A stretch of 64,000 nucleotides of DNA from Nostoc sp. T09 (GTDB taxonomy: Bacteria > Cyanobacteriota > Cyanobacteriia > Cyanobacteriales > Nostocaceae), in NCBI RefSeq assembly GCF_002154695.1, contig NZ_MTAV01000103.1, positions 1,889 through 65,888 of the forward strand, in the 5' to 3' direction. Within the stretch, counting starts at the first letter, position 1. Every line of letters starts with the position of its first letter. A program made the position numbers and the translations under genes. Of the stretch, positions 31,786 through 46,989 are shown piece by piece. The notes under the pieces are model-generated. The model did no database searches and was not told where the DNA came from. It saw only the letters and a list, made by a program, of their open reading frames with translations.

Positions 31786-34700
31786 ATGTTAGTAGTATCA
31801 GAAACATTATCTCCTATAATTGGCTATCACATTATTGAGCAATTATATTCAGGTAAAAAAACCTTAGTTTATCGAGCTATCAGAGAAAAAGACCAGCAAT
31901 CAGTTATTTTAAAATTGATGCGCACTGAAGATCCTAACTTTGCTGAAATTAATCAGTTCCGCAATCAATACACAATTACTCAAAATCTTGAACTTCCGGG
32001 CATAGTCAAACCAATAAGCTTAGAAACCTACCACAATAGATATTTCCTAGTAATGGAAGACTTTGGTGGTATAGCCCTGAATACATGGCAACTAAAAGAG
32101 CAGAAAAAGGGGAATAATTCTATTTCTTTAAGTAAATTTTTCGAGATTGCGATCGAAATTAGTGCAACTTTAGAAGGGTTACATCGCCATCGCATCATTC
32201 ACAAAGACATCAAACCTGCCAACATCCTGATTCATCCCATAGCAGGTAAGACTAGAATCATCGATTTTAGTCTCGCTACTCTATTACCAAAAGAAATTCA
32301 ATTTCTCACAAATCCTAACGTCCTAGAAGGTACTCTAGCTTATATTTCTCCTGAACAAACAGGACGCATGAATCGAGGTATAGACTACCGTACCGACTTT
32401 TATTCCTTAGGTGTTACCTTCTTTGAACTCCTGACTGGGCAGTTACCCTTCAATACCACTGAACCGATGGAGTTAGTCTACTCTCACATTGCCAAAGAAC
32501 CGCCAAAAGCCAGCCGGATTAACTCTAATATTTCTACAATTTTATCTGATATTATCAGCAAGCTGATGGCAAAAAATGCCGAAGACCGATATCAGAGTGC
32601 TCATGGACTCAGGTATGACTTGGAGAGATGTCAAAACCAATGGCAAGAGAAAGGAAATATTACAGCCTTTGAATTAGGGATTCGGGATATCTCAAACCAT
32701 TTTGCCATTCCTGAAAAACTTTATGGTCGCCAACGAGAGATTGAAATTCTACTCACTACTTTTGATCGGGTGACAAGCGGAAGCACGGAAATGATCTTAG
32801 TCGCTGGTTATTCAGGGATTGGTAAAACCGCTATAGTCAACGAAGTCCACAAACCCATTGCCAGACAGCGTAGTTACTTCATCAAAGGGAAATTTGACCA
32901 GTTCCAACGTGACATTCCGTTATCAGGATTGGTACAAGCTTTGCGAGATTTAATTGGGCAAATACTCTCAGAAACAGATGCCCAAATTCAACAGTGGAAA
33001 GCCAAAATTATATCGGCATTGGGTACACAATCTCAGGTAATTATTGATGTAATTCCTGAACTCGAAAGAATTATTGGCGAACAACTTTTAGTTACTGAAC
33101 TTGCTGGTAGCGCTGCTCAAAATCGCTTCAATTTATTGTTTCAGAGATTTATCCAGGTTTTCACTACTAAAGAGCATCCTCTGGTAATCTTTCTGGATGA
33201 TTTGCAATGGGCAGATACGGCTTCCTTGAAATTTATTCAATTATTAGTTAGTGGAACTTCTTCTCGCCTTGCTAGCGATACAGAAGATATATCTGAGAAT
33301 AAGGCTAGTCTGCTAATGATTGGGGCGTATAGAGATAATGAAGTATTAAATCTACATCCATTACATTTGACACTACAAGAAATTGCCAAAGCAGGAACAG
33401 TAATTAATACAATTCAACTTTCACCATTAAGTCAGGTTGATTTGAATCATCTAATTGCTGATACGCTGCGTTGCAGAGAAGTAATTGCTGTGCCTCTAAC
33501 TCAAATGGTGTTTGCTAAAACTAAAGGTAACCCATTCTTTGCATCTCAATTTCTCAAATTATTATATGATGATGGGCTAATTGAATTAAATTTTGATGCT
33601 GGCTATTGGCAGTACGATATTACCAAAATTAAAACACTGTCTCTTACAGATGATGTAGTAGAATTTTTGGGTATTCAAATAGAAAAGTTGCCCAAGGATG
33701 TACAAAATGTATTAAAAATATCTGCTTGCATTGGTAATGAATTTGACTTAAAGACATTGGCAATTGTTAATGAGAAATCTGTAATAGATACTGCATCAGA
33801 TTTATGGCAAGCATTACTTGAAGGACTGATTGTACCGCAGAAAGATGGTTATAATCTTATACCAGAAGATGAGAGACAGTTATTAAACATTTCAAATAGA
33901 GAATCAGAAAATTTATCAATTACTAATTCTCAATTACCTAAATATAAATTTGTACATGACCGAGTTCAGCAAGCAGCTTATTCTCTAATTCCCCAAGACC
34001 AAATAAAGCAAATTCACTTAAAAATTGGGCAGCTTCTCTTTAAGAATACCCCAGTTGTCGAACGTGAAGAAAGAATTTTTGAGCTTGTCAATCAGTTCAA
34101 TATTGCAGTTGAATTCATCACAGATCAAGCTCAACGTGATGAGCTAGCCCAAATGAATCTGATTGCTGGACGTAAAGCTTTGGTATCAACAGCTTATTCA
34201 TCTGCACTTAAGTATTTAACTACTGGCATTGAGCTACTAACAGATGATAGTTGGAATGCTAAATATGATATCACCTTAGCTTTGTATAATACGGCAGCAG
34301 AAGCAGCATATCTCAGTGGCGACTTTGAATATACAGAAAAATTTGTCCAGGTTGTATTGGTAGAGGCAAAAACTCCACTGGATCAAGTGAAAGCTTATGA
34401 AGTTAAAATACAGTCTTATGGTGCACAAGGGAAAGAACTGGAAGCTGTCAATATTGCAAAAATCTTTTTGAAAACTTTGGGAGTAGAGTTCCCTACAAAT
34501 CCCAGCCAATCAGATATTCAGATAGAAATAGAGACAACCTCTGCAAAATTGGCTACTAGACCCATTCAAGACTTAATTGAACTGCCAGAAATTACAGAAG
34601 CCCAACCACTGATAATCATGCGTATTCTATCTAGTGCAATTGCTCTTGCTTATACAGTTGCGCCTGAATTATTAGTGTTGATTATTCTGAAACAGATCAA

Positions 34701-37404
34701 TTTATCTATTAAATTTGGTAATTCTCCTTTATCTGCTTTTGCATATGTGATGTATGGAGTAATGCTGTGTGGGGTAATGGGAGATATTGATTCTGGATAT
34801 AAATTTGGGAAACTGGCTGAGAGTTTATTGCCTAAATTCCAAACAAGAGGAGTAACTGGCAAGGTTATGGAAACATTTAATCATCTTGTCAGACATTGGA
34901 AAGAGCATATAAAGCAAACATTGAAACCTTTACTTGAGGCTTATACCACTAATCTCGAAGCAGGAGATATGGAATTTGCAGCTTATGCTCTTTATGGTTA
35001 CTGCCAACATGTATATTTTACAGGACAAGAACTAGTAGAACTTGAGCAAGAGATAGAGACATATAGCAATATTATTAGGCAAATAAAGCAAGAAAGAGTA
35101 TTTCATTGGAATGAAATATTTCGGCAAACAATCTTAAATCTTCTGGGAGATGTTAAAAATCCGCAGAGTTTAATCGGTGAAGTATATGATGAGGATAAAA
35201 TGCTACCGCTTCATCTTAAAGCTAAAGATGGAGGAGCACTTTTTTTCCTATATTTCTGCAAACTTCACCTGTGTTATCTGCTGGCTGATTACTCTCAAGC
35301 CCTTAAAAATACAGTAATGGCAGAAAAGTACTTATATGCTGTTATAGGTATGTTTGTTACTGCTCAATTCTATTTCTACGATTCATTGACGCATCTGGCA
35401 GTATATTCTGATTTCGAGGAATTTGAACAAAAAGATATCCTCCATAGAGTGGCAGCAAATCAGGAAAAAATGCAAAATTGGGCAGTTCAGGCTCCTATGA
35501 ATCACTTGCATAAATTTCATTTAGTGGAGGCAGAACGGCATCGAGTTCTTGGTCAATATCTTGAAGCGATAGATAATTACGAATACGCTATTTCCTTGAC
35601 CAAGGAAAATGATTACATTAACGAAGAAGCTCTTGCTTACGAGTTAGCGGCTAAATTTTATCTCGCATGGGGTAAAGACAGAATCGCCCAACTCTACCTC
35701 ACTGATGCTTACTATTGCTATCTTCGCTGGGGAGCATTAGCCAAAGTTGATGACTTACAAAAACGCTATCCTCAATTACTGGTTTCCATAATTCAGCAAG
35801 AAAAACTTAGCCATTCTTGCAGTGAAAAAAATCTACCTGAACTGAGCATACACTTATCTACACTCAGTAATAAATCTACTTTAGTGACGAATGAAACTGT
35901 TATTGGCTCCAACACCAGTATTTCAGATATGTTGGATTTGGCAACTGTCATTAAAGCTTCTCAAGCAGTCTCTGGAGAGATTGAACTGGAGGCACTTCTT
36001 TCTACTTTAATGGAAGTTGTCATGGAAAATGCGGGAGCTTCTAAATGTGTGTTGATATTAAGTGAAGCTAATAACTTAGACTTAACTGTTACCGCAGTTA
36101 GTTCCGGTTCAACTTTTGGAGCTACTCACACGGAGTTTTTATCTATTCCTTTAGAGTCCAGCGATCGTGTTCCTATTTCTTTGATTAATTATGTCAAACG
36201 TACTCAAGAAATATTAGTAATTGATGACATCAAAGCTCAAGCCTCTTTTGCAGTAGATAGTTATATTACCCGTGAGGAACCAAAGAGCGTGTTATGTATT
36301 CCGATGCTTAATCAAGGCAAATTGCTGGGGCTTATTTACCTAGAAAATAATTTAACTACGGGAGCATTTACACGCGATCGCCTAGAACTTCTAAAACTCT
36401 TAACTATCCAAGCGGCAATCTCTTTAGAAAATGCCATTCTCTACAATAATTTGGCTGAAGCTAATGAGCGCTTGGAAGAATACAGCCATGTACTAGAGGA
36501 AAGGGTGGTGGTCAGAACAGCAGAAATTAATGAAAAAAATAAACATTTGCAAGCAGCACTAGAAGAATTACAAAGTACTCAAAGTCAATTAATTCAAAGT
36601 GAAAAAATGTCTTCTTTAGGGCAAATGATAGCGGGAATTGCTCATGAAATTAATAACCCGATTAACTTTATTCATGGTAATATTTCTCATGCGAGTGACT
36701 ATGTTCAAGATTTGCTAGATTTGATTAATATTTATCAGCAAGAATATCCCCATCCATCGGCAATAGTGGAGGAAAAAATTCAGGAGATGGATGTGCATTT
36801 CCTGACAGAAGACCTACCGAGAGTTCTCGATTCTATGAAGCTTGGAAGTTCCCGTATCCGGAATATAATTCTGAGCTTACGTAACTTCTCTCGTCTAGAT
36901 GAGTCGGAAATGAAGCCTGTAAATATTCATGAAGGAATCGACAGTACCCTAATGATTTTGCAGCATCGACTCAAGGAAAAGAGCGATCGCCCGGAAATTG
37001 AGGTCGTCAAAGAATACGCACCACTGCCAAATGTTAGTTGCTATGCTGGTCAACTCAACCAGGTATTTATGAATATCTTAAGTAATGCGATCGATGCTTT
37101 AGAGGAGTACAAGCATGAAGGAGATTCTCTAATTAAAAATCCTCAAATTCGCATTCGCACTGAACTAGGAGAAGCGAACACGCTGAAGATTCGGATTGCT
37201 GATAACGGTCACGGCATGACTGCACAGGTGCAGCAGAAAATATTTGACCCATTTTTTACTACTAAAGCAGTAGGAAGTGGTACGGGGTTGGGGTTGTCAA
37301 TTAGCTATCAAGTTGTGGTAGATAAACACAAGGGTCAATTAAGCTGTGATTCAAGTCCTGGAAAAGGGACTGAGTTTGTGATTGAAATTCCGATGCAACA
37401 GTAA
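31786..37404 (+). CDS. Giant Ser/Thr kinase - AAA ATPase - GAF - histidine kinase
   Basis: An 1872-residue cytoplasmic signalling protein joining two kinase types. Residues 15-280 are a Hanks-type kinase (catalytic loop HKDIKPANIL; DFG-like IIDFSLAT; EGTLAYISPEQTGR). At about 315-700 is an AAA/ORC-type ATPase with Walker A GYSGIGKT and Walker B LVIFLDDLQWAD. A long helical TPR-like region (750-1330), a GAF domain (about 1380-1555) and a coiled coil follow. A histidine kinase with GIAHEINNPINFIHG and GTGLGLSISYQV ends it. This is the HstK-type architecture common in Nostoc. The GAF ligand is unknown. It is a single gene, convergent with the monooxygenase gene. Confidence 0.95.
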   Translation: MLVVSETLSPIIGYHIIEQLYSGKKTLVYRAIREKDQQSVILKLMRTEDPNFAEINQFRNQYTITQNLELPGIVKPISLETYHNRYFLVMEDFGGIALNTWQLKEQKKGNNSISLSKFFEIAIEISATLEGLHRHRIIHKDIKPANILIHPIAGKTRIIDFSLATLLPKEIQFLTNPNVLEGTLAYISPEQTGRMNRGIDYRTDFYSLGVTFFELLTGQLPFNTTEPMELVYSHIAKEPPKASRINSNISTILSDIISKLMAKNAEDRYQSAHGLRYDLERCQNQWQEKGNITAFELGIRDISNHFAIPEKLYGRQREIEILLTTFDRVTSGSTEMILVAGYSGIGKTAIVNEVHKPIARQRSYFIKGKFDQFQRDIPLSGLVQALRDLIGQILSETDAQIQQWKAKIISALGTQSQVIIDVIPELERIIGEQLLVTELAGSAAQNRFNLLFQRFIQVFTTKEHPLVIFLDDLQWADTASLKFIQLLVSGTSSRLASDTEDISENKASLLMIGAYRDNEVLNLHPLHLTLQEIAKAGTVINTIQLSPLSQVDLNHLIADTLRCREVIAVPLTQMVFAKTKGNPFFASQFLKLLYDDGLIELNFDAGYWQYDITKIKTLSLTDDVVEFLGIQIEKLPKDVQNVLKISACIGNEFDLKTLAIVNEKSVIDTASDLWQALLEGLIVPQKDGYNLIPEDERQLLNISNRESENLSITNSQLPKYKFVHDRVQQAAYSLIPQDQIKQIHLKIGQLLFKNTPVVEREERIFELVNQFNIAVEFITDQAQRDELAQMNLIAGRKALVSTAYSSALKYLTTGIELLTDDSWNAKYDITLALYNTAAEAAYLSGDFEYTEKFVQVVLVEAKTPLDQVKAYEVKIQSYGAQGKELEAVNIAKIFLKTLGVEFPTNPSQSDIQIEIETTSAKLATRPIQDLIELPEITEAQPLIIMRILSSAIALAYTVAPELLVLIILKQINLSIKFGNSPLSAFAYVMYGVMLCGVMGDIDSGYKFGKLAESLLPKFQTRGVTGKVMETFNHLVRHWKEHIKQTLKPLLEAYTTNLEAGDMEFAAYALYGYCQHVYFTGQELVELEQEIETYSNIIRQIKQERVFHWNEIFRQTILNLLGDVKNPQSLIGEVYDEDKMLPLHLKAKDGGALFFLYFCKLHLCYLLADYSQALKNTVMAEKYLYAVIGMFVTAQFYFYDSLTHLAVYSDFEEFEQKDILHRVAANQEKMQNWAVQAPMNHLHKFHLVEAERHRVLGQYLEAIDNYEYAISLTKENDYINEEALAYELAAKFYLAWGKDRIAQLYLTDAYYCYLRWGALAKVDDLQKRYPQLLVSIIQQEKLSHSCSEKNLPELSIHLSTLSNKSTLVTNETVIGSNTSISDMLDLATVIKASQAVSGEIELEALLSTLMEVVMENAGASKCVLILSEANNLDLTVTAVSSGSTFGATHTEFLSIPLESSDRVPISLINYVKRTQEILVIDDIKAQASFAVDSYITREEPKSVLCIPMLNQGKLLGLIYLENNLTTGAFTRDRLELLKLLTIQAAISLENAILYNNLAEANERLEEYSHVLEERVVVRTAEINEKNKHLQAALEELQSTQSQLIQSEKMSSLGQMIAGIAHEINNPINFIHGNISHASDYVQDLLDLINIYQQEYPHPSAIVEEKIQEMDVHFLTEDLPRVLDSMKLGSSRIRNIILSLRNFSRLDESEMKPVNIHEGIDSTLMILQHRLKEKSDRPEIEVVKEYAPLPNVSCYAGQLNQVFMNILSNAIDALEEYKHEGDSLIKNPQIRIRTELGEANTLKIRIADNGHGMTAQVQQKIFDPFFTTKAVGSGTGLGLSISYQVVVDKHKGQLSCDSSPGKGTEFVIEIPMQQ

Positions 37405-37416
37405 GACAAGCTGTCG

Positions 37417-37450
37417 ATACGGTTCGGTGAAGTTCTCAACCGAACCGTAT
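37417..37450. terminator. Stem-loop between the convergent kinase and monooxygenase genes
   Basis: A perfect 12-base stem ATACGGTTCGGT (37417-37428) with ACCGAACCGTAT (37439-37450), loop of 10. It lies between two convergent stop codons. There is no long T run on either side, so its efficiency as a terminator is uncertain. Confidence 0.7.
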
Positions 37451-37460
37451 TGCGGAGATA

Positions 37461-39008
37461 TTAACTAACAGTGCTCACCTCTATATTTGCCGCGATCGCA
37501 GAATCATTGAGAGATGAATGTTGTTTTGCTTGTAATTCCTGTCGGAGATTTTTGTAAGCAGATGGATCTGCTGGCATCATCAACTCCCCAAGAAGGTTTG
37601 CAGGTTTGCGGCAGGTGCTGAGGCCCATATCCTGAATCAACTCATCGATGTAATGGAAGGTAAAAGGAATTAAACATGCTCCACTTACAAAAGCATATGG
37701 TCTATCTTTCTTCCTCCATTCCAACTCTGCCGTGACATCCTCTAGCATCTCTTGCTGGGATGGTAAGGCCATATTTCCTTTGACATACTCTGATAACCAC
37801 CGGGCACCAATCTCCGCTGATAACTGGGCACAGAAGGTGTAGTTATAACCAACGAAACCCATTTGAGGAACTTGAGGGTGAATGAGATGGCGGTAAAGAT
37901 GAATGGTGCCTTGCTCATCAAATACGTGCCTGTAGTACTTCTCTTCTAAAAAAGGGATATTCTGAAGAAATCCTGTGCCAAAGACGACGATATCTGCGTG
38001 TACTTGTTCGCCGTTATCTAATTCCACGCCACTAGCAAAAAACTTGTTGATCTTTGTCTTGACAGCGCGGATTTTTCCTGCGCGGACATGCTCAAAAAAG
38101 CCTTGAGGTGCCAAGCCGATACTACAGCCTATCAATTTATTAATGGGTTGTTTGGGCACCATCCCACAAGCATCAAGCGGAAACTGTAAGCGCAGGATAG
38201 TCTCGTTTAGCCGCCAGAATACCCACACCAGTGGCTTCCCAAAACTATGCAGCCACTTTTCCCATCCTTGAAGTTTATGATAGGGCATCCAAGTTTCTGC
38301 AAACCGAGTCAGGAAAATATACTTGATGTTGAACAGACCAAGAAAGAAGTTGGGAACTTTCCATAGCGCTTGACGGAACACAAGGGTACATTCCTTGGCC
38401 TTAGTAGCTGCGAGATTCGCAAGATCGGTAGCTGACTTACCAAAACCTACAACAACCACTCGCTTGCCTTCAATTACAGAGCCGTCATTAAAGTTGTTAG
38501 TATGTATTACCTGACCTCCAGCTGCTATGAACTCTTCCATTCCCGGCAAGTTAGGAATGTAGGGAATATCACAAAGGCCATTGCACACAATAACAAAGTC
38601 GAACTCGTAATTTTGTTTTCTTATCTCCTTACCATCTTCTTGAAAGCTAACACTAACCATCCATCCAGGAGTATTTCCTGATTTGCGCTCTACTTTAGTT
38701 ACTTTCACACCGAACTGAATTTTTTCTGCTACACCAAAGTATTGGGCATAAGATTCTAGGTAAGCGCATATTTGCTCTCCTGAAGGCCATTCTGGATAAG
38801 AGGCGGGCATAGGATAGTCTGAGAAAGCATATGTGTCTCTGGGGTTTTGGCTCGACAGTCCTGGGTAAGCCCTCGACCTTTCCCACACACCACCAAGTCC
38901 CTGCCGTTTCTCGAATACTGTAACTTCGTAACCTTCCTCAAGAAATGTCTTTGCTGAAACTAATCCGCTGACTCCAGCCCCAATCACGCATACTTGTTTG
39001 ACTGTCAT
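37461..39008 (-). CDS. Flavin-containing monooxygenase
   Basis: A 515-residue class B flavoprotein monooxygenase, third gene of the halogenase operon. FAD-binding GAGVSG is at 10-15 and NADPH-binding VVVVGFGKSATD around 184-195. A near-match to the FMO identifying motif is G165-x3-H169-x3-F173. Such enzymes oxygenate N or S atoms, or insert oxygen in Baeyer-Villiger fashion. It could also supply reduced flavin chemistry for the pathway, but it is not a plain flavin reductase. It starts 19 bases after the halogenase stop, with AGGAG before the ATG. The substrate is unknown. Confidence 0.9.
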   Translation of the reverse strand: MTVKQVCVIGAGVSGLVSAKTFLEEGYEVTVFEKRQGLGGVWERSRAYPGLSSQNPRDTYAFSDYPMPASYPEWPSGEQICAYLESYAQYFGVAEKIQFGVKVTKVERKSGNTPGWMVSVSFQEDGKEIRKQNYEFDFVIVCNGLCDIPYIPNLPGMEEFIAAGGQVIHTNNFNDGSVIEGKRVVVVGFGKSATDLANLAATKAKECTLVFRQALWKVPNFFLGLFNIKYIFLTRFAETWMPYHKLQGWEKWLHSFGKPLVWVFWRLNETILRLQFPLDACGMVPKQPINKLIGCSIGLAPQGFFEHVRAGKIRAVKTKINKFFASGVELDNGEQVHADIVVFGTGFLQNIPFLEEKYYRHVFDEQGTIHLYRHLIHPQVPQMGFVGYNYTFCAQLSAEIGARWLSEYVKGNMALPSQQEMLEDVTAELEWRKKDRPYAFVSGACLIPFTFHYIDELIQDMGLSTCRKPANLLGELMMPADPSAYKNLRQELQAKQHSSLNDSAIAANIEVSTVS

Positions 39009-39027
39009 CTTGGGTTCTCCTAAATTA

Positions 39028-40665
39028 TTAAATTGGTACAGGAATTTGCTGTGTCCGATCGCTAACCACGCTAAGATACTCAGACTGTTCTTGAGACTTA
39101 ATTACATGAGTTAAATATTCATATTGAGACGGCAAAGTCGAACTTAGGTAATCGGCTCTTTCCTTAATTTCCACAAATGCAGCCTGGGCATTGTGATTTC
39201 TGATATGCTCTAAAACAGGGAGGCTGCTTTCAGGCAGATAATTTAACCCCAGCAACATTACCGAATAAGAGTAAGACTCGAAGCCGTGGTATTTCGGGTT
39301 GATACTCTTGTTGCTTGGCAGTCTATTTTTCCATAATCTTAATTTTTCCCGTAGTTCTTCTGGGACTTTGATATCGTTCTTAGTTGCTTTCCAAAACTCT
39401 GTGTCGGCGCGATCGCTAGCATAGTAATGAAGTGTCAAGAATTCTCGTACCCCATCTATGCAGTCAGCAACAGCTTTGTTATAGCTGCAAATTAGCTCTT
39501 TATTGAAAGATTTGGTGGGGAAGTGGTTAACTAACTCTTCAATCCCATGTTGAATAAAGAAGATACCAGTAGATTCTAATGGTTCCACAAATCCACTGGA
39601 AAGTCCAATTGCTACACAGTTTTTCACCCATGAGTTTCTGTTACGTCCAATCCGCATCTTGATATGAGAGGCTTTGCAATTGTTAGCAGCGACTCCCAAA
39701 TGCTGGCGAAATTCTTGTTCTGCTTCCTCCGCAGAGATGAATGCGCTGGAATAAACATACCCTGTACCATTTCTGCCATACAAAGGTATATTCCAGACCC
39801 AACCAGATGAGAGCGCAGTTGCAGTTGTGTAAGGGTTAATACCATCTTTCTTCAGATCGGTTGGTATCTGCATAGCGATCGCGTGATCGCACAATAGCGA
39901 CTCTGAATAAGAAATAAATGGCTCACCAAGAGCTTTATTGATCAAAAGACCACGGAAACCAGTACAGTCAATAAAAAGGTCGCCACTGAGAATGCCATGC
40001 TCTTTGGTGTTGAGACTATCTATGCTCCCATCCCCCATTAACTTGACATCCACCACATCATCAACAATTTGCTTCACTCCCCTTTGTATCGCATAATCTT
40101 TCATGAATCTTGCCAGTAGATTCGCATCAAAATGATAAGCATAGGGGTACTGAATCTTTAAATTGTCCAGTATGTTTTTCTTAGTGATATTCTCCTGAGA
40201 AAATTCATTTTGAACTTTGTTATCAAAGACTTTACCATCAAAATATCTAGGAGACCTTTGATTGTCGCACAGCCAAGGAATTAAAAAGCAGGCATAATCG
40301 AATGCTTCTTGGTCTTTCTTCATTTTCAGCCACCATTCAGAGATATCAAAGCCGTCGATTACCTCATATCTCTGGAAAGGATGGTAGAAGTGTTGCCCCT
40401 TCGCATTCCAGTTTACAAACTTAATTGCCATCTTATATGTGGCATTACATTTTGGCATCCATTCATATTCTTGTAGTCCAAGAAAATCAAAGAATACTTT
40501 GATGGTGCTAAAAGTTGCTTCCCCCACTCCAACTTTTGTGATGTTCGATGATTCCACCAGAGTAATCTGCACATTCCTATCTAGTGCTTTACTCAAATAA
40601 GCTGCCGTCATCCAACCTGCTGAACCACCACCAACAATTACAACATTTTGTACATACTGTGACAT
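39028..40665 (-). CDS. Flavin-dependent tryptophan-type halogenase
   Basis: A 545-residue FADH2-dependent halogenase that chlorinates or brominates aromatic rings, usually indole. All hallmarks are intact: FAD motif GGGSAGW at 12-18, catalytic lysine K78 in NATYKMAIKF (equivalent to K79 of PrnA), WxWxIP motif W289-V-W-N-I-P294, and the active-site glutamate region EPLESTG at 361-367. The regiochemistry cannot be read directly. It is the middle gene of a minus-strand operon, after the CADD-like oxidase (67-base gap) and before the monooxygenase (19-base gap). A good AAAGGAG precedes the ATG. Confidence 0.95.
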   Translation of the reverse strand: MSQYVQNVVIVGGGSAGWMTAAYLSKALDRNVQITLVESSNITKVGVGEATFSTIKVFFDFLGLQEYEWMPKCNATYKMAIKFVNWNAKGQHFYHPFQRYEVIDGFDISEWWLKMKKDQEAFDYACFLIPWLCDNQRSPRYFDGKVFDNKVQNEFSQENITKKNILDNLKIQYPYAYHFDANLLARFMKDYAIQRGVKQIVDDVVDVKLMGDGSIDSLNTKEHGILSGDLFIDCTGFRGLLINKALGEPFISYSESLLCDHAIAMQIPTDLKKDGINPYTTATALSSGWVWNIPLYGRNGTGYVYSSAFISAEEAEQEFRQHLGVAANNCKASHIKMRIGRNRNSWVKNCVAIGLSSGFVEPLESTGIFFIQHGIEELVNHFPTKSFNKELICSYNKAVADCIDGVREFLTLHYYASDRADTEFWKATKNDIKVPEELREKLRLWKNRLPSNKSINPKYHGFESYSYSVMLLGLNYLPESSLPVLEHIRNHNAQAAFVEIKERADYLSSTLPSQYEYLTHVIKSQEQSEYLSVVSDRTQQIPVPI

Positions 40666-40732
40666 AGCAAAATTTCTCCTTTAGGCTTGAATTAGGTATT
40701 AATTGTCAATTTCAAGAAGCTTGTTCGTTCAT

Positions 40733-41446
40733 TTATGCAGCTTTCAATGGCTGCTCAATTTTATGGGTTTTGGCATATACTAAAAGGCCATTTGTAAATT
40801 GGGTAAAAACTGTAAATAAGTTCTCAACCAATTCAAAAGCTTCTTGTCGGGTTGCTTCTGATAGTTGAATATCTTGTAACAATTGTTCTATTCCAGATGA
40901 ACCTGTCATGTGACCAGTTTCAACATCTAAATGGAAATCTGCAAAATATCGGCATGGTTTTTGCGTAATTGCTTTAATTTCTTTGCCAATTTCTGCTGCT
41001 ATGGAAAACATTATATTGCCCGTTGCTTCGGTAACTTCAATGACTATTATTTTTTGGATAGGAGTAGCTTGTGAAGTATATCGATAGAGTTGATAGTTCA
41101 ACCAGCGAGCATTCTTAGTTTCTTCACTCCAAAGAAATTTTAATGCATCACTAAATTTTAAGGATTTGTCAAGTTCTAAGTTCTTTATATCTTCCAAAAA
41201 CCACAACCAATGATGGTCGTCTTCATAAGTATGTTTGTTAATTATTGCCTGAATAGGATCGCTCGTTGGTTCTACTCGTAAAAAATATTTATTCAGTTCA
41301 CCAAAATTCATTATGAAATGAGCAGCGCATGGTGCCCAAGCCAGCCTTTGTTTGGGGTCTATACTTTGGTCTTGCATGAATTTAAATAATGGCAACTGAG
41401 AAAATTCCTGCTTTTTATTTTGAATTAATGCTAGAACTTCTTTCAT
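40733..41446 (-). CDS. CADD-like heme-oxygenase-fold di-iron oxidase
   Basis: First gene of the halogenase operon. I place the start at the ATG at 41446 (MKEVLALIQNKKQEF, 237 aa) because GGAG lies 8 bases before it. A frame open to 41599 adds 51 residues without a Shine-Dalgarno motif. All-helical with no membrane segment. Metal-ligand pattern: HTYEDDHHW (72-80), E140 in VIEVTEATG, and H172-x3-E176-x2-H179 in FADFHLDVETGH. This spacing agrees with CADD, where the last three ligands are His-x3-Asp-x2-His. Relatives (UndA, BesC, AetD-type nitrile synthase) fragment or oxidise amino acids or fatty acids. A halogenated amino acid is a sensible substrate here; that is inference. Confidence 0.8.
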   Translation of the reverse strand: MKEVLALIQNKKQEFSQLPLFKFMQDQSIDPKQRLAWAPCAAHFIMNFGELNKYFLRVEPTSDPIQAIINKHTYEDDHHWLWFLEDIKNLELDKSLKFSDALKFLWSEETKNARWLNYQLYRYTSQATPIQKIIVIEVTEATGNIMFSIAAEIGKEIKAITQKPCRYFADFHLDVETGHMTGSSGIEQLLQDIQLSEATRQEAFELVENLFTVFTQFTNGLLVYAKTHKIEQPLKAA

Positions 41447-41599
41447 GTTTATTGCTCCAAATTTCAATGGGTAATATGGGAAAAATTGTACTTTTACAGC
41501 ATTGTGTAAGTATGCAAAAGTATTGAATGCAGATCGTTCATCACCAATCAGTAAATATCTGTTGAGACTTTTAGATATTTTTGATGAATATACCAGCAT

Positions 41600-43446: not shown

Positions 43447-44087
43447 ATGCGCATAAGGAGTCATGAACTTCGTACTTCTCTCAACGTAATTCTCGGCTAC
43501 GCCAAAATCCTACAACTTGATAAAACTGCCAGCCCCAAGCAACAGGATGGGATTAGCGTTATCCTCATTTTTTACTTTTCAAATAGAGTCCTTGGAGTTA
43601 GTTTTAAGAAATTCTCGTTGGATTACAAGGCTAATTCTACGCTTACAGCCTGCAAGTATAGCGATCGCTTCCGGAAAACTAGACTAAAAAGTTGAAATTA
43701 AGGGTAGAGATAAACTAAAGTCTGGCACAATCTTTTAACTAAATGGTCGCACAGTTGCAAGCATCATTCTTAGAACTAGAAACCAGAATTGAAAAACGTA
43801 CTACCATTGTTAATCTGTGATAACCTTTAGGTTTTGCACTAATGGAAGCTCTCAACGGAAAAGAAGAATTAGAAAAAGCCCTTGCGTGGCAGCCTGAGTC
43901 AGTCATCACTGATATACAAAATCTTTGGACTACTGCCACCATTGACGATATTGCAGGGGTTGAAGAGGAACCTCAACGACTACAGCAGTTAGATATTAAA
44001 TATCTAGCTTTTACTGGCAACCTTTTGAAACTCACTCAACATCTCGATAAAGAAGCTATTCTCAAGCCAGTTAAACAGTACATTTGA
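43447..44087 (+). pseudogene. Decayed hybrid histidine kinase remnant
   Basis: Three pieces of a hybrid kinase remain in order. At 43447-43550 a dimerisation box reads SHELRTSLNVILGYAKILQL, then runs into unrelated sequence. At 43742-43820 a short coiled-coil piece (ASFLELETRIEKRT) stops early. At 43842-44087 a receiver fragment (ALNGKEELEKALAWQPESVI) is joined to a kinase C-terminal tail ending KQYI. The catalytic ATPase domain and the phospho-acceptor aspartate region are missing. Frames are shifted and interrupted by stops. The end overlaps the possible TTG start of the next gene. Confidence 0.7.
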
Positions 44088-44098
44088 CAGCCTTAAAT

Positions 44099-45391
44099 AT
44101 GGTTAATAATAAACAAAATCTCATCATGATTGTTGAAGATAAACCAACAAATGCCAAGGTACTGTTTGATTTTTTACAAGCATCCGGTTTTCGCGTTTTA
44201 GTTGCCACAAGTGGTGAGAGTGCTCTAGAGAAATTGCAAGTAGTTTCTCCTGATCTCATATTATTAGATATTATGATGCCGGGAATTGATGGCTTTGAAA
44301 CCTACCGTCGTTTAAAACAAGAAAAAGCTACCCAAGACATCCCAGTTATTTTTATGACGGCTCTATCAGATGTGGTAGATAAAGTTAAAGGACTAACTCT
44401 CGGTGCAGTAGATTATATTACCAAGCCATTTCAGCCAGAAGATGTACTTGCTCGAATCAATCTTCATCTAAAACTGTGTCACCTCAACCAAAAACTGCAA
44501 CAACGAGCGGCAGAGCTAACTGCTACGGTGGAACAGCTACAACAGTCGCAGCTGCGGTTAGTGCAAAGTGAAAAAATGTCTTCTTTAGGGCAGTTGGTTG
44601 CAGGAATTGCTCATGAAATTAATAATCCTGCTGGCTTTGTTAAGGGCAATCTCGCCTATGCTCATAAATATATGCAAGACCTGATCGATCATATTCATCT
44701 TTACAAAAATCAGGCTTCAGCAGCAGAAATCGCCCGACATGCAGCAAAAATTGATTTGGAATATCTCCTCAAAGATTGTCCACACATTCTCTCTTCAATG
44801 CATGAGGGAATAGAACGGATTTGCGATATTAGTGTTTCTCTACGCACCTTTGCACGTGCTGATAACATGGTGAAAATTCCTTTTAATATTCACGATGGCA
44901 TCGACAGTACTATTTTAATTCTCAAGCATAGATTGAAGGCTTCTAATACTCGCCCAGCTATTGAAGTTATCCGAGATTACGATAATTTACCAGAAGTGGA
45001 ATGCTTCCCTGGACAACTAAATCAGGTATTTATGAATCTTTTAGCTAATGCTATTGATGCTTTAGAAGAGTCAAATATAGGGAGTAGCTATCAAGAAATA
45101 GCAGAACACCCTAATTTTATTAAAATTCAAACTAAGTTAAGTGAAGATGAAAATTCTATCCTAATTATGATTAAAGATAATGGTTTAGGTATTCCAGATG
45201 AAATAAAATCCCAAATATTTGATAATTTATTTACAACTAAAGCTGTAGGAAAAGGTACAGGCTTAGGATTATCAATTACTCGTCAAATTATTGTAGAAGA
45301 ACATGGGGGCAGTATAGAAGTAAATTCAGTACCAAGTGAAGGTACAGAATTTGTAATTACTCTTCCTGTAATAGACCTAAGTAATGGGTAA
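44099..45391 (+). CDS. Receiver - histidine kinase
   Basis: A protein of about 430 residues with the domains in the order receiver then kinase. The receiver (1-125) has phospho-acceptor aspartate in LLDIMMPGIDG and lysine in ITKPFQPED. A coiled coil leads to a kinase with H-box GIAHEINNPAGFVKGNLAYA and ATPase motif GTGLGLSITRQI. The kinase half closely resembles the C-terminal kinase of the 1872-residue protein at 31.8 kb. ATG at 44099; TTG at 44084 is an alternative that would overlap the pseudogene stop. In relatives such genes follow an intact hybrid kinase as its partner; here that partner is decayed. Confidence 0.9.
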   Translation: MVNNKQNLIMIVEDKPTNAKVLFDFLQASGFRVLVATSGESALEKLQVVSPDLILLDIMMPGIDGFETYRRLKQEKATQDIPVIFMTALSDVVDKVKGLTLGAVDYITKPFQPEDVLARINLHLKLCHLNQKLQQRAAELTATVEQLQQSQLRLVQSEKMSSLGQLVAGIAHEINNPAGFVKGNLAYAHKYMQDLIDHIHLYKNQASAAEIARHAAKIDLEYLLKDCPHILSSMHEGIERICDISVSLRTFARADNMVKIPFNIHDGIDSTILILKHRLKASNTRPAIEVIRDYDNLPEVECFPGQLNQVFMNLLANAIDALEESNIGSSYQEIAEHPNFIKIQTKLSEDENSILIMIKDNGLGIPDEIKSQIFDNLFTTKAVGKGTGLGLSITRQIIVEEHGGSIEVNSVPSEGTEFVITLPVIDLSNG

Positions 45392-45426: not shown

Positions 45427-46989
45427 TTATAATCCTTCTGGATGCTCGGTATTAACCGCACTTGCCTGAGTGCTAACAACAGTATTTGCTTGCAATATAG
45501 CAGTATTAGCAACTGAATTGTTAGCTAAGGTAAACAGAGGATTTGACAAAATCCCAGCAATGGAAGTGGCGATTAAAGTTACTATTAATCCCACCTGTAA
45601 AGGTCTAAATCCAGGTAGATTCCAATTTATTGCGGGATAATTCTTCACCACGTCAGACATTTCTTGAGGTTCTTTGACTACCATCATCTTGACTACACGA
45701 ATGTAGTAGTAGATGGAGACCACTGTGGTAACTAACCCTAACAAGACTAACCAGTAAAGGCCTGCTTGCCAGCCAGCCCAGAACAAGTAAATTTTGCCAA
45801 AAAACCCAGCTAGTGGCGGAATACCACCTAAAGACAGCAGGGAAATACTCAAACCCAATGTCAGGAGCGGATCTTTTTGATACAAACCAGAGTATTCAGC
45901 AATCTGGTCGGTTCCAGTCCGCAGGGAGAACAGAATGATGCAGGTAAAGCCGCACAGGTTCATGAACAGATAGACCAGCAAGTAAAATATCATACTGGAA
46001 TATCCAGCTTCAGTACCAGCAATTAAGCCAATCATCACAAACCCCGCTTGGGCAATGGATGAATAAGCTAGCATCCGTTTCATGCTGGTTTGTGCTAGGG
46101 CCACTACGTTACCCAACACCATACTGAGAACAGCAAGAGCAGTGAAGACGAATCTCCACTCGTCAGCAACAAAGGGAAAGACTGTGGTTAATAAGCGGAT
46201 AGCTAGGGCAAAACCTGCGGCTTTGGAACCTACAGATAAAAAGGCAATCACTGGGGTGGGAGCGCCTTCGTAAACATCTGGGGTCCACTGGTGGAAGGGA
46301 GCAGCAGAAATTTTGAAGCCAATCCCTGCAATCACAAACACAAGGGCAATCACTACAGCCAATGACTGACCAATCTTAGCTGTAGCAATGCCATTGGCGA
46401 TCGCACTCAGTTCTGTTTGTCCGCCGGATAATCCGTACAGCAGCGACACGCCATATAAAAATACTGCTGTACTGGAAGCTCCAATCAACAGATATTTCAG
46501 CGCCGCTTCATTAGAGCGCGGGTCACGCTTGGTATAACCTGTTAACAAATAAGAGGAAATACTCAGGGTTTCTAGAGAGATGAAAATCATCACTAACTCG
46601 CTAGCCCCGGATAAAAACATTCCTCCTAGGGTAGCAGTGAGCAAAATCGCAATGAATTCTGCTAAAGCAGTGCCACTCTGCTCCACATAGCGAATGGACA
46701 TCAATATGGTAACGGCGGCAGACAAGGCAATGATACCGCGAAAGACGATACTCAGGTCGTCACCATTAAAGCCACCGCTAAAGGAGATGGGATTGGTAGC
46801 ATCCCATTGAAAATACAGGGCGACAATCGCAGCAAGTAAACCTGCGATCGCTAGATACCCAATCCAGCGTGAAGATGTACGCCCCAAAATCAAATCAACA
46901 ATCAAAACCCCCAAGAGGGTGAGAATGACAATCCCCTCTGGCAAAATCGTTCCAGCATTTAACTGGGATGCAAGATTAGCAAAATCCAT
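45427..46989 (-). CDS. ndhB: NAD(P)H-quinone oxidoreductase subunit 2 (NDH-1 subunit N)
   Basis: A proton-pumping membrane subunit of the cyanobacterial NDH-1 complex, needed for respiration, cyclic electron flow and CO2 uptake. It is 520 residues with about 14 hydrophobic segments. It starts [20 protein letters not shown] as in other cyanobacteria, with the conserved [19 protein letters not shown] segment and lysines in membrane helices. It is monocistronic, as usual for cyanobacterial ndhB. Confidence 0.98.

Follow-up and report, generated by a model that had tools for sequence, protein, structure and literature searches.

The DNA analysed here, referred to as the window, is a stretch of 64,000 nucleotides from Nostoc sp. 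T09 (NCBI RefSeq assembly GCF_002154695.1, contig NZ_MTAV01000103.1, positions 1,889 to 65,888 of the forward strand; coordinates below are those of the window). It carries an operon for a di-iron oxidase (HDO), a tryptophan halogenase and a flavin monooxygenase, which probably encodes a skt-type pathway: tryptophan would be converted to 5-halo-tryptophan, then to 5-halo-skatole and cyanide, and finally to an oxidised halo-indole. Protein families, active-site residues, the halogenase loop and the conservation of the gene trio were determined in this analysis; the reactions of SktA and AetD, and the way AetD binds its substrate, were taken from published papers. The three genes, each an open reading frame with an ATG start and no internal stop, are:

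40733..41446, minus strand: di-iron oxidase gene (HDO), 237 amino acids
39028..40665, minus strand: tryptophan halogenase gene, 545 amino acids
37461..39008, minus strand: flavin monooxygenase gene, 515 amino acids

In the proposed pathway, the halogenase would use reduced flavin adenine dinucleotide (FADH2) from a reductase encoded elsewhere and place Cl or Br onto C5 of free tryptophan. Fe1 of the oxidase would hold the 5-halo-tryptophan via its amino and carboxyl groups, O2 would be activated, and the side chain would be shortened to a methyl group; the products would be 5-halo-3-methylindole (5-halo-skatole) and cyanide. The monooxygenase may then oxidise the indole at C2/C3 or N, or act likewise on a closely related product. 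We infer that the oxidase of this strain makes skatole, as we do the order of the steps and the substrate of the monooxygenase. A small halogenated product derived from tryptophan, made without a non-ribosomal peptide synthetase or polyketide synthase, had been proposed from the DNA letters (the original prediction); it is well supported by the 5-type halogenase, the AetD/SktA-family oxidase and the co-occurrence of the genes.

Di-iron oxidase

The oxidase belongs to the AetD/SktA family, of the haem-oxygenase fold. A phmmer search of the PDB returned AetD, the nitrile synthase of aetokthonotoxin biosynthesis (E 4e-54); the alignment is gap-free over residues 1-232, which allows AetD residue numbering for the window oxidase. 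None of the Pfam and NCBIfam models reached its cut-off on this protein. The AlphaFold2 model was helical and confident (mean pLDDT, the predicted local distance difference test score, 89.3). The enzyme had been called CADD-like, which is right for the fold superfamily and wrong for sequence kinship: AetD was the sole match in the PDB search, with no CADD chain at E ≤ 5, and a close relationship to CADD (p-aminobenzoate synthase) was rejected at the sequence level.

All six AetD iron ligands named in the extract of PMC10654658 (D76, H79, E140, H172, E176, H179) are present in the window oxidase. The set is complete in 14/14 oxidases of the trio loci described below and in 84 of the 102 aligned family rows (the 102 loci include one identical sequence under two handles, L038 and L123). 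The pocket of the window oxidase reads F44, F48, T139, T142, M146, Y167 and F214, of which F44, F48 and Y167 correspond to part of the AetD substrate pocket (PMC11611611, in extract). At three further positions SktA has T139/T142/F214 and AetD has M139/A142/S214 (extract of a 2026 review, PMC13108848); the window oxidase carries the SktA residues and lacks those of AetD, including S214, the contact to 7-Br. According to the same extract, the native substrate of SktA is 5-bromo-tryptophan, which is converted to 5-bromoskatole; skatole and cyanide are given as the SktA products in the title of Adak et al. 2025 (PMC11869266). The locus resembles that of SktA in three pocket residues, in the iron ligands and in the adjoining tryptophan 5-type halogenase. 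Between the window oxidase and that of strain NIES-2108, 205 of 237 residues are identical, and the same residues occur at 14 compared positions, T139/T142/F214 among them.

An AetD-type route, in which the oxidase would yield 5-halo-indole-3-carbonitrile that is then modified by the monooxygenase, is unlikely. Homology to AetD does extend over nearly the full length, with the same ligands and with F44, F48 and Y167 in common, but M139, A142 and S214 are absent, AetD sits on a long separate branch whose placement is unsure, and the AetD substrate is 5,7-dibromo-tryptophan (extracts of PMC10654658 and PMC11611611), as opposed to the product of a predicted single-position halogenase here. Nitrile chemistry was set aside because the pocket residues speak against it. 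As a model for the operon, AetD is apt at the level of the family, whereas the chemistry of SktA (skatole and cyanide) fits better. AetF, the halogenase partner of AetD, reportedly belongs to a different, single-component class.

A third, undescribed cut of halo-tryptophan, one that requires the monooxygenase and yields, e.g., an indole aldehyde, oxime or acid, appears improbable. AetD and SktA make different products from near-identical substrates on one fold (PMC13108848, in extract), and position 139 varies inside the trio clade, both of which would favour such a cut; against it stand the agreement at the 14 compared positions and an identity of 86% with the oxidase of NIES-2108.

Tryptophan halogenase

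The halogenase matched Pfam Trp_halogenase (1.5e-146), and its best solved relatives were tryptophan 5- and 6-halogenases: 8fov (a tryptophan 5-halogenase, E 3e-186), 5hy5 (E 2.6e-180) and 2wet (1.5e-177). We take 8fov and 2wet to be AbeH and PyrH, respectively. The halogenase motifs had been described as intact, and all were found: GxGxxG (GGGSAGW at 12), the catalytic K78, WxWxIP (WVWNIP at 289) and ESTG (EPLESTG at 361). The regioselectivity loop consists of F451/E452/T453 in PyrH and L460/P461/P462 in the 6-halogenase SttH, and its exchange moves the activity of SttH towards C5 (extract of PMC5071727). The window halogenase has the 5-type loop HGFESYSY at 460 (F-E-S, not L-P-P), and HGFE[ST]YSY occurs in 14/14 trio halogenases. 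The protein is most likely an FADH2-dependent halogenase of the tryptophan-5 type. With 8fov and 2wet it shares the region of the catalytic lysine, WxWxIP and the F-E-S/T loop; unlike them, it is a cyanobacterial enzyme whose gene is linked to an HDO gene.

One 79% identical halogenase (L089, G172:C121) was located in a different small cluster, where a methyltransferase, an EgtD-like protein and a DAO-type oxidase were recognised by eye. The product of that cluster is perhaps a halogenated tryptophan betaine.

Flavin monooxygenase

The monooxygenase is of the class B flavin type, similar to flavin-containing monooxygenases (Pfam FMO-like, 1.8e-55). It has the FAD motif GAGVSG at 10, the NADPH motif GFGKSA at 188 and the FMO-type motif GQVIHTNNF from 165. 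We assume the usual meanings of these motifs: two Rossmann motifs with GxxxHxxx[YF] for FMO, and GxxxHxxxW for Baeyer-Villiger enzymes. Assignment as a Baeyer-Villiger monooxygenase was rejected, since F sits where GxxxHxxxW has W.

Conservation of the gene trio

Among 386 cyanobacterial genomes, the oxidase family was detected in 34 (E ≤ 0.001), the monooxygenase in 12 (E ≤ 1e-100) and the halogenase in 7 (E ≤ 1e-80). The genome of the window has a single match for each of the three (E ≤ 0.001 for halogenase and oxidase, E ≤ 1e-100 for the monooxygenase). Pattern scanning located 55 oxidase loci in named genomes; at 12 of these all three genes are present in the order seen in the window, which with G125 and the window makes 14 loci. 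Conserved co-occurrence, whose absence had been set beforehand as a refuting observation, was therefore found. A trio shared by 14 loci goes far beyond chance, as do the Pfam matches of the halogenase and the monooxygenase. About a dozen named genomes of Nostocales carry the trio, including that of a lichen partner (L095). At L128 and L132 the oxidase is accompanied by a halogenase only 40-44% identical, and a monooxygenase of this kind is absent.

The 14 trio oxidases, including that of the window, form one clade (support 100/85), and AetD lies elsewhere, on a long and unsure branch. The NIES-2108 oxidase falls inside this clade; compared with the window, its locus (L099) shows identities of 86.5% for the oxidase, 88.4% for the halogenase and 89.9% for the monooxygenase.

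Several observations weigh against the skt-type assignment. T142 and F214 occur in 89 and 88 of the 102 aligned family rows, respectively, and were dropped as diagnostic residues; because both are common across the whole family, only T139 discriminates the SktA type, and it is found in 10 of the 14 trio oxidases (the rest have L or I) and in 3 non-trio oxidases. Halogenases 76-79% identical to that of the window stand apart from any oxidase (G172, G382), and the F-E-S loop is also present in two close halogenases with no adjoining oxidase (L089, L090). The monooxygenase family adjoins the oxidase in just 7 of its 12 genomes. In the nearest relative, Nostoc sp. 106C (L094), a 97.0% identical oxidase is paired with a monooxygenase of 58.7% identity, so the final step may vary between strains. 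That Nostoc punctiforme NIES-2108 is the source of SktA, and that its skt cluster is this trio, are both our assumptions. In the extract of PMC5071727, the triple change of the SttH loop led to 75% 5-chlorination with indolepropionate and to 32% with tryptophan; the loop alone is therefore insufficient to fix the position of halogenation. Finally, bromination was not required for the AetD reaction (extract of PMC10654658), so the halogenase may be non-obligatory.

Operon structure

The arrangement originally described, three minus-strand genes with gaps of 67 and 19 bases and their own ribosome-binding sites, was confirmed by the open reading frames and by direct reading of the sequence. The untranslated gaps are 40666-40732 (oxidase/halogenase) and 39009-39027 (halogenase/monooxygenase). 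The oxidase frame is open up to 41599, and the ATG at 41446 matches the first aligned residue of AetD and its homologues. The remaining features of the operon are:

41455..41458, minus strand: ribosome-binding site of the oxidase gene, GGAG, by direct reading
40676..40680, minus strand: ribosome-binding site of the halogenase gene, AGGAG, by direct reading
39017..39021, minus strand: ribosome-binding site of the monooxygenase gene, AGGAG, by direct reading
37417..37450, minus strand: hairpin (14 pairs, one bulged base) within the 56 bases that separate the monooxygenase gene from the convergent kinase gene

The stretch 37395-37470 around the hairpin folds at -23.7 kcal/mol (z -3.46), has no T run and is absent from the list of the terminator scan; the hairpin is perhaps a two-way transcription stop. 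The promoter scan gave 11 sites (18.2 expected) and the terminator scan 4 (3.9 expected). No resistance or transport gene lies inside the three-gene unit, as had been stated. A mobile or viral origin of the operon was rejected; viral contigs gave no confirmed relative.

Interchangeable middle gene

The gene between oxidase and monooxygenase is a swappable cassette, even at a single chromosomal address. In place of the halogenase gene, other loci carry, either between the oxidase and monooxygenase genes or next to them, MIDC (a Pyr_redox_3 flavoprotein, 527 amino acids), MIDD (a flavoprotein of 575 amino acids that is closest, among solved structures, to halogenases including CmlS and PltA) or nothing: oxidase and monooxygenase were found with MIDC or MIDD at 10 of the 102 loci and without a middle gene at 4. 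These loci also bear on a YUCCA-like halo-auxin route, in which the monooxygenase would be the main partner of the halogenase and the three genes only loosely linked. Membership of the FMO-like family and the separation of the FMO from the oxidase in 5 of 12 genomes would agree with it, but the operon spacing, the fixed order in 14 loci and the retention of HDO and FMO around another middle gene, or none, make it very improbable.

For the operon, the chromosomal address was marked by the following gene:

45427..46989, minus strand: ndhB/nuoN-like gene, named by eye

This address is common to 14 of the 102 oxidase loci, the window included, with different middle classes. Exchange of the middle gene seems to have taken place in situ, because differing classes adjoin the same ndhB-like gene. 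The nearest relative, 106C, illustrates such an exchange: its DNA, compared with the window, is ~93% identical in the upstream flank, ~91-96% in the oxidase gene, 64-87% in the halogenase gene, ~66% in the monooxygenase gene (blastn) and again 88% in the kinase gene.

In Acaryochloris (L139, 10001-12670), oxidase and MIDC form one open frame of 890 amino acids, and at L130 (4830-6113) they share one open frame up to the contig end. These apparent natural fusions suggest that oxidase and MIDC act together, unless the single frames are an assembly fault.

Other members of the oxidase family

One clade of oxidase homologues (L066, L069, L071, L072, L073) has Y in place of the iron-ligand histidines 79 and 172 (AetD numbering), and for this reason its members are probably not di-iron oxidases. 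Genome G305 carries a tandem pair of oxidase homologues (L042, 15877-17502). The AetD/SktA family is also encoded on plasmids, in 332 records of which 266 belong to Escherichia, 36 to Piscirickettsia and 22 to Salmonella; the 30 records listed are annotated as 'hypothetical protein' or not at all. The single E. coli copy inspected (L149, NZ_CP024261.1, 16472-17974) encodes 500 amino acids, with an N-terminal oxidase that has the six iron ligands and a weaker second oxidase-like repeat at 272-428.

Giant kinase and other neighbours

The original prediction had recognised the operon; the interchangeability of its middle gene and its tie to a giant kinase gene downstream were not seen there. The kinase gene is convergent with the operon, 56 bases away, with the hairpin between them:

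31786..37404, plus strand: giant Ser/Thr kinase - AAA ATPase - GAF - HisKA/HATPase, 1872 amino acids, by domain search; tail to tail with the operon

A kinase relative (tblastn, at least 500 bits, within the fetched flanks of about 10 kb or less) was present near 65 of the 102 oxidase loci and missing from 37. It was convergent downstream in 45 cases, upstream on the opposite strand in 12 and on the same strand in 8, and it was present at 13 of the 14 trio loci. These linkage counts are non-independent, some loci coming from one genome that was fetched twice or from closely related genomes. For an estimate of chance linkage, the window genome was joined by 13 other genomes that carry the oxidase; most consist of few contigs, and the choice was made once the link was known. 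With no more than 32 candidates scored for any one genome, each of these 14 genomes has at least 1 to 27 copies of the kinase (E ≤ 1e-150). After one short fragment match had been dropped, a kinase lay within 5 kb of 12 of the 21 full-length oxidase loci, against 0.56 expected from the listed copy number (probability by chance 1e-14, a figure that ignores shared ancestry). As a control, loci with a monooxygenase or halogenase but no oxidase were inspected, and 0 of 10 had the kinase; three of the halogenases are only 40-45% identical.

A tree of 84 kinases was built with FastTree and rooted at the midpoint; oxidase loci are over-represented in it, since most kinases were fetched via the oxidase. 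One clade of 43 comprises 36 oxidase-linked kinases, 5 linked to a terpene synthase or cytochrome P450 and 2 unlinked; the other side holds 19 oxidase-linked kinases in several groups and 22 unlinked. Seven full-length kinases are at least 60% identical to that of the window and have no oxidase beside them (a split match, G000:C216, stood outside this comparison); 5 of the 7 have a class I terpene synthase gene, a P450 gene or both in their vicinity (L150, L152, L153, L155, L156), with L155, in the window genome, having the P450 only. The kinases of L151 and L154 have no terpene synthase or P450 nearby, and a truncated kinase (L159) is also at a terpene synthase. Around 19 more distant kinases, chosen for having no adjoining oxidase, a search for relatives of the query genes found no terpene synthase or P450. 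In 2008, Agger and colleagues reportedly described a comparable kinase close to terpene synthase genes of Nostoc. The locus resembles such Nostoc terpene synthase - P450 - kinase miniclusters in that their synthase or P450 genes are likewise convergent with, or close to, a kinase gene of this clade; it differs in that their synthase is a terpene cyclase, whereas the enzyme here is an amino-acid-cutting oxidase.

Upstream of the operon lies a further signalling gene:

44084..45391, plus strand: response regulator - histidine kinase, 435 amino acids, by domain search

Its relatives at five other HDO loci (L094, L103, L105, L106, L117) are 59-94% identical. As a general partner it was rejected: matches occur at 65 of the 102 loci, most of them 44-50% identical and located in the histidine-kinase portion of the giant kinase itself, and near relatives (at least 59% identical) are confined to the window and the five loci named.

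The repeated pairing in several orientations, together with the alternative terpene pairing of the kinase, suggests that giant kinase and operon product belong together, with the kinase as regulator or receptor. No published account of an oxidase-kinase link was found, a weak negative as the search was mostly outside subscription journals. It is possible, though doubtful, that the locus is an infochemical module, with the oxidase as a fixed core that cuts tryptophan, a swappable flavoenzyme cassette that would determine the decoration of the indole and a dedicated kinase that would sense or control the volatile; halo-skatole would be an intercellular signal, and not solely a poison, with its receptor kinase encoded alongside. 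Under this signal reading, and just as tentatively, the kinase might have been recruited several times, with terpene synthase/P450 genes among its partners.

Biological significance

The trio would place the published yet rare one-enzyme conversion of tryptophan to skatole and cyanide into a recurrent gene set, and the loci supply natural variants with different halogenases and monooxygenases. Beyond the skt-type pathway, what the locus adds is the swapping of the middle gene and the linkage to the kinase, and the kinase pairing is the most interesting open point. If this link is functional, it would suggest a role for a large group of giant kinases in cyanobacteria, most of which is unexplained, with each kinase lying beside the enzyme that makes its small molecule.

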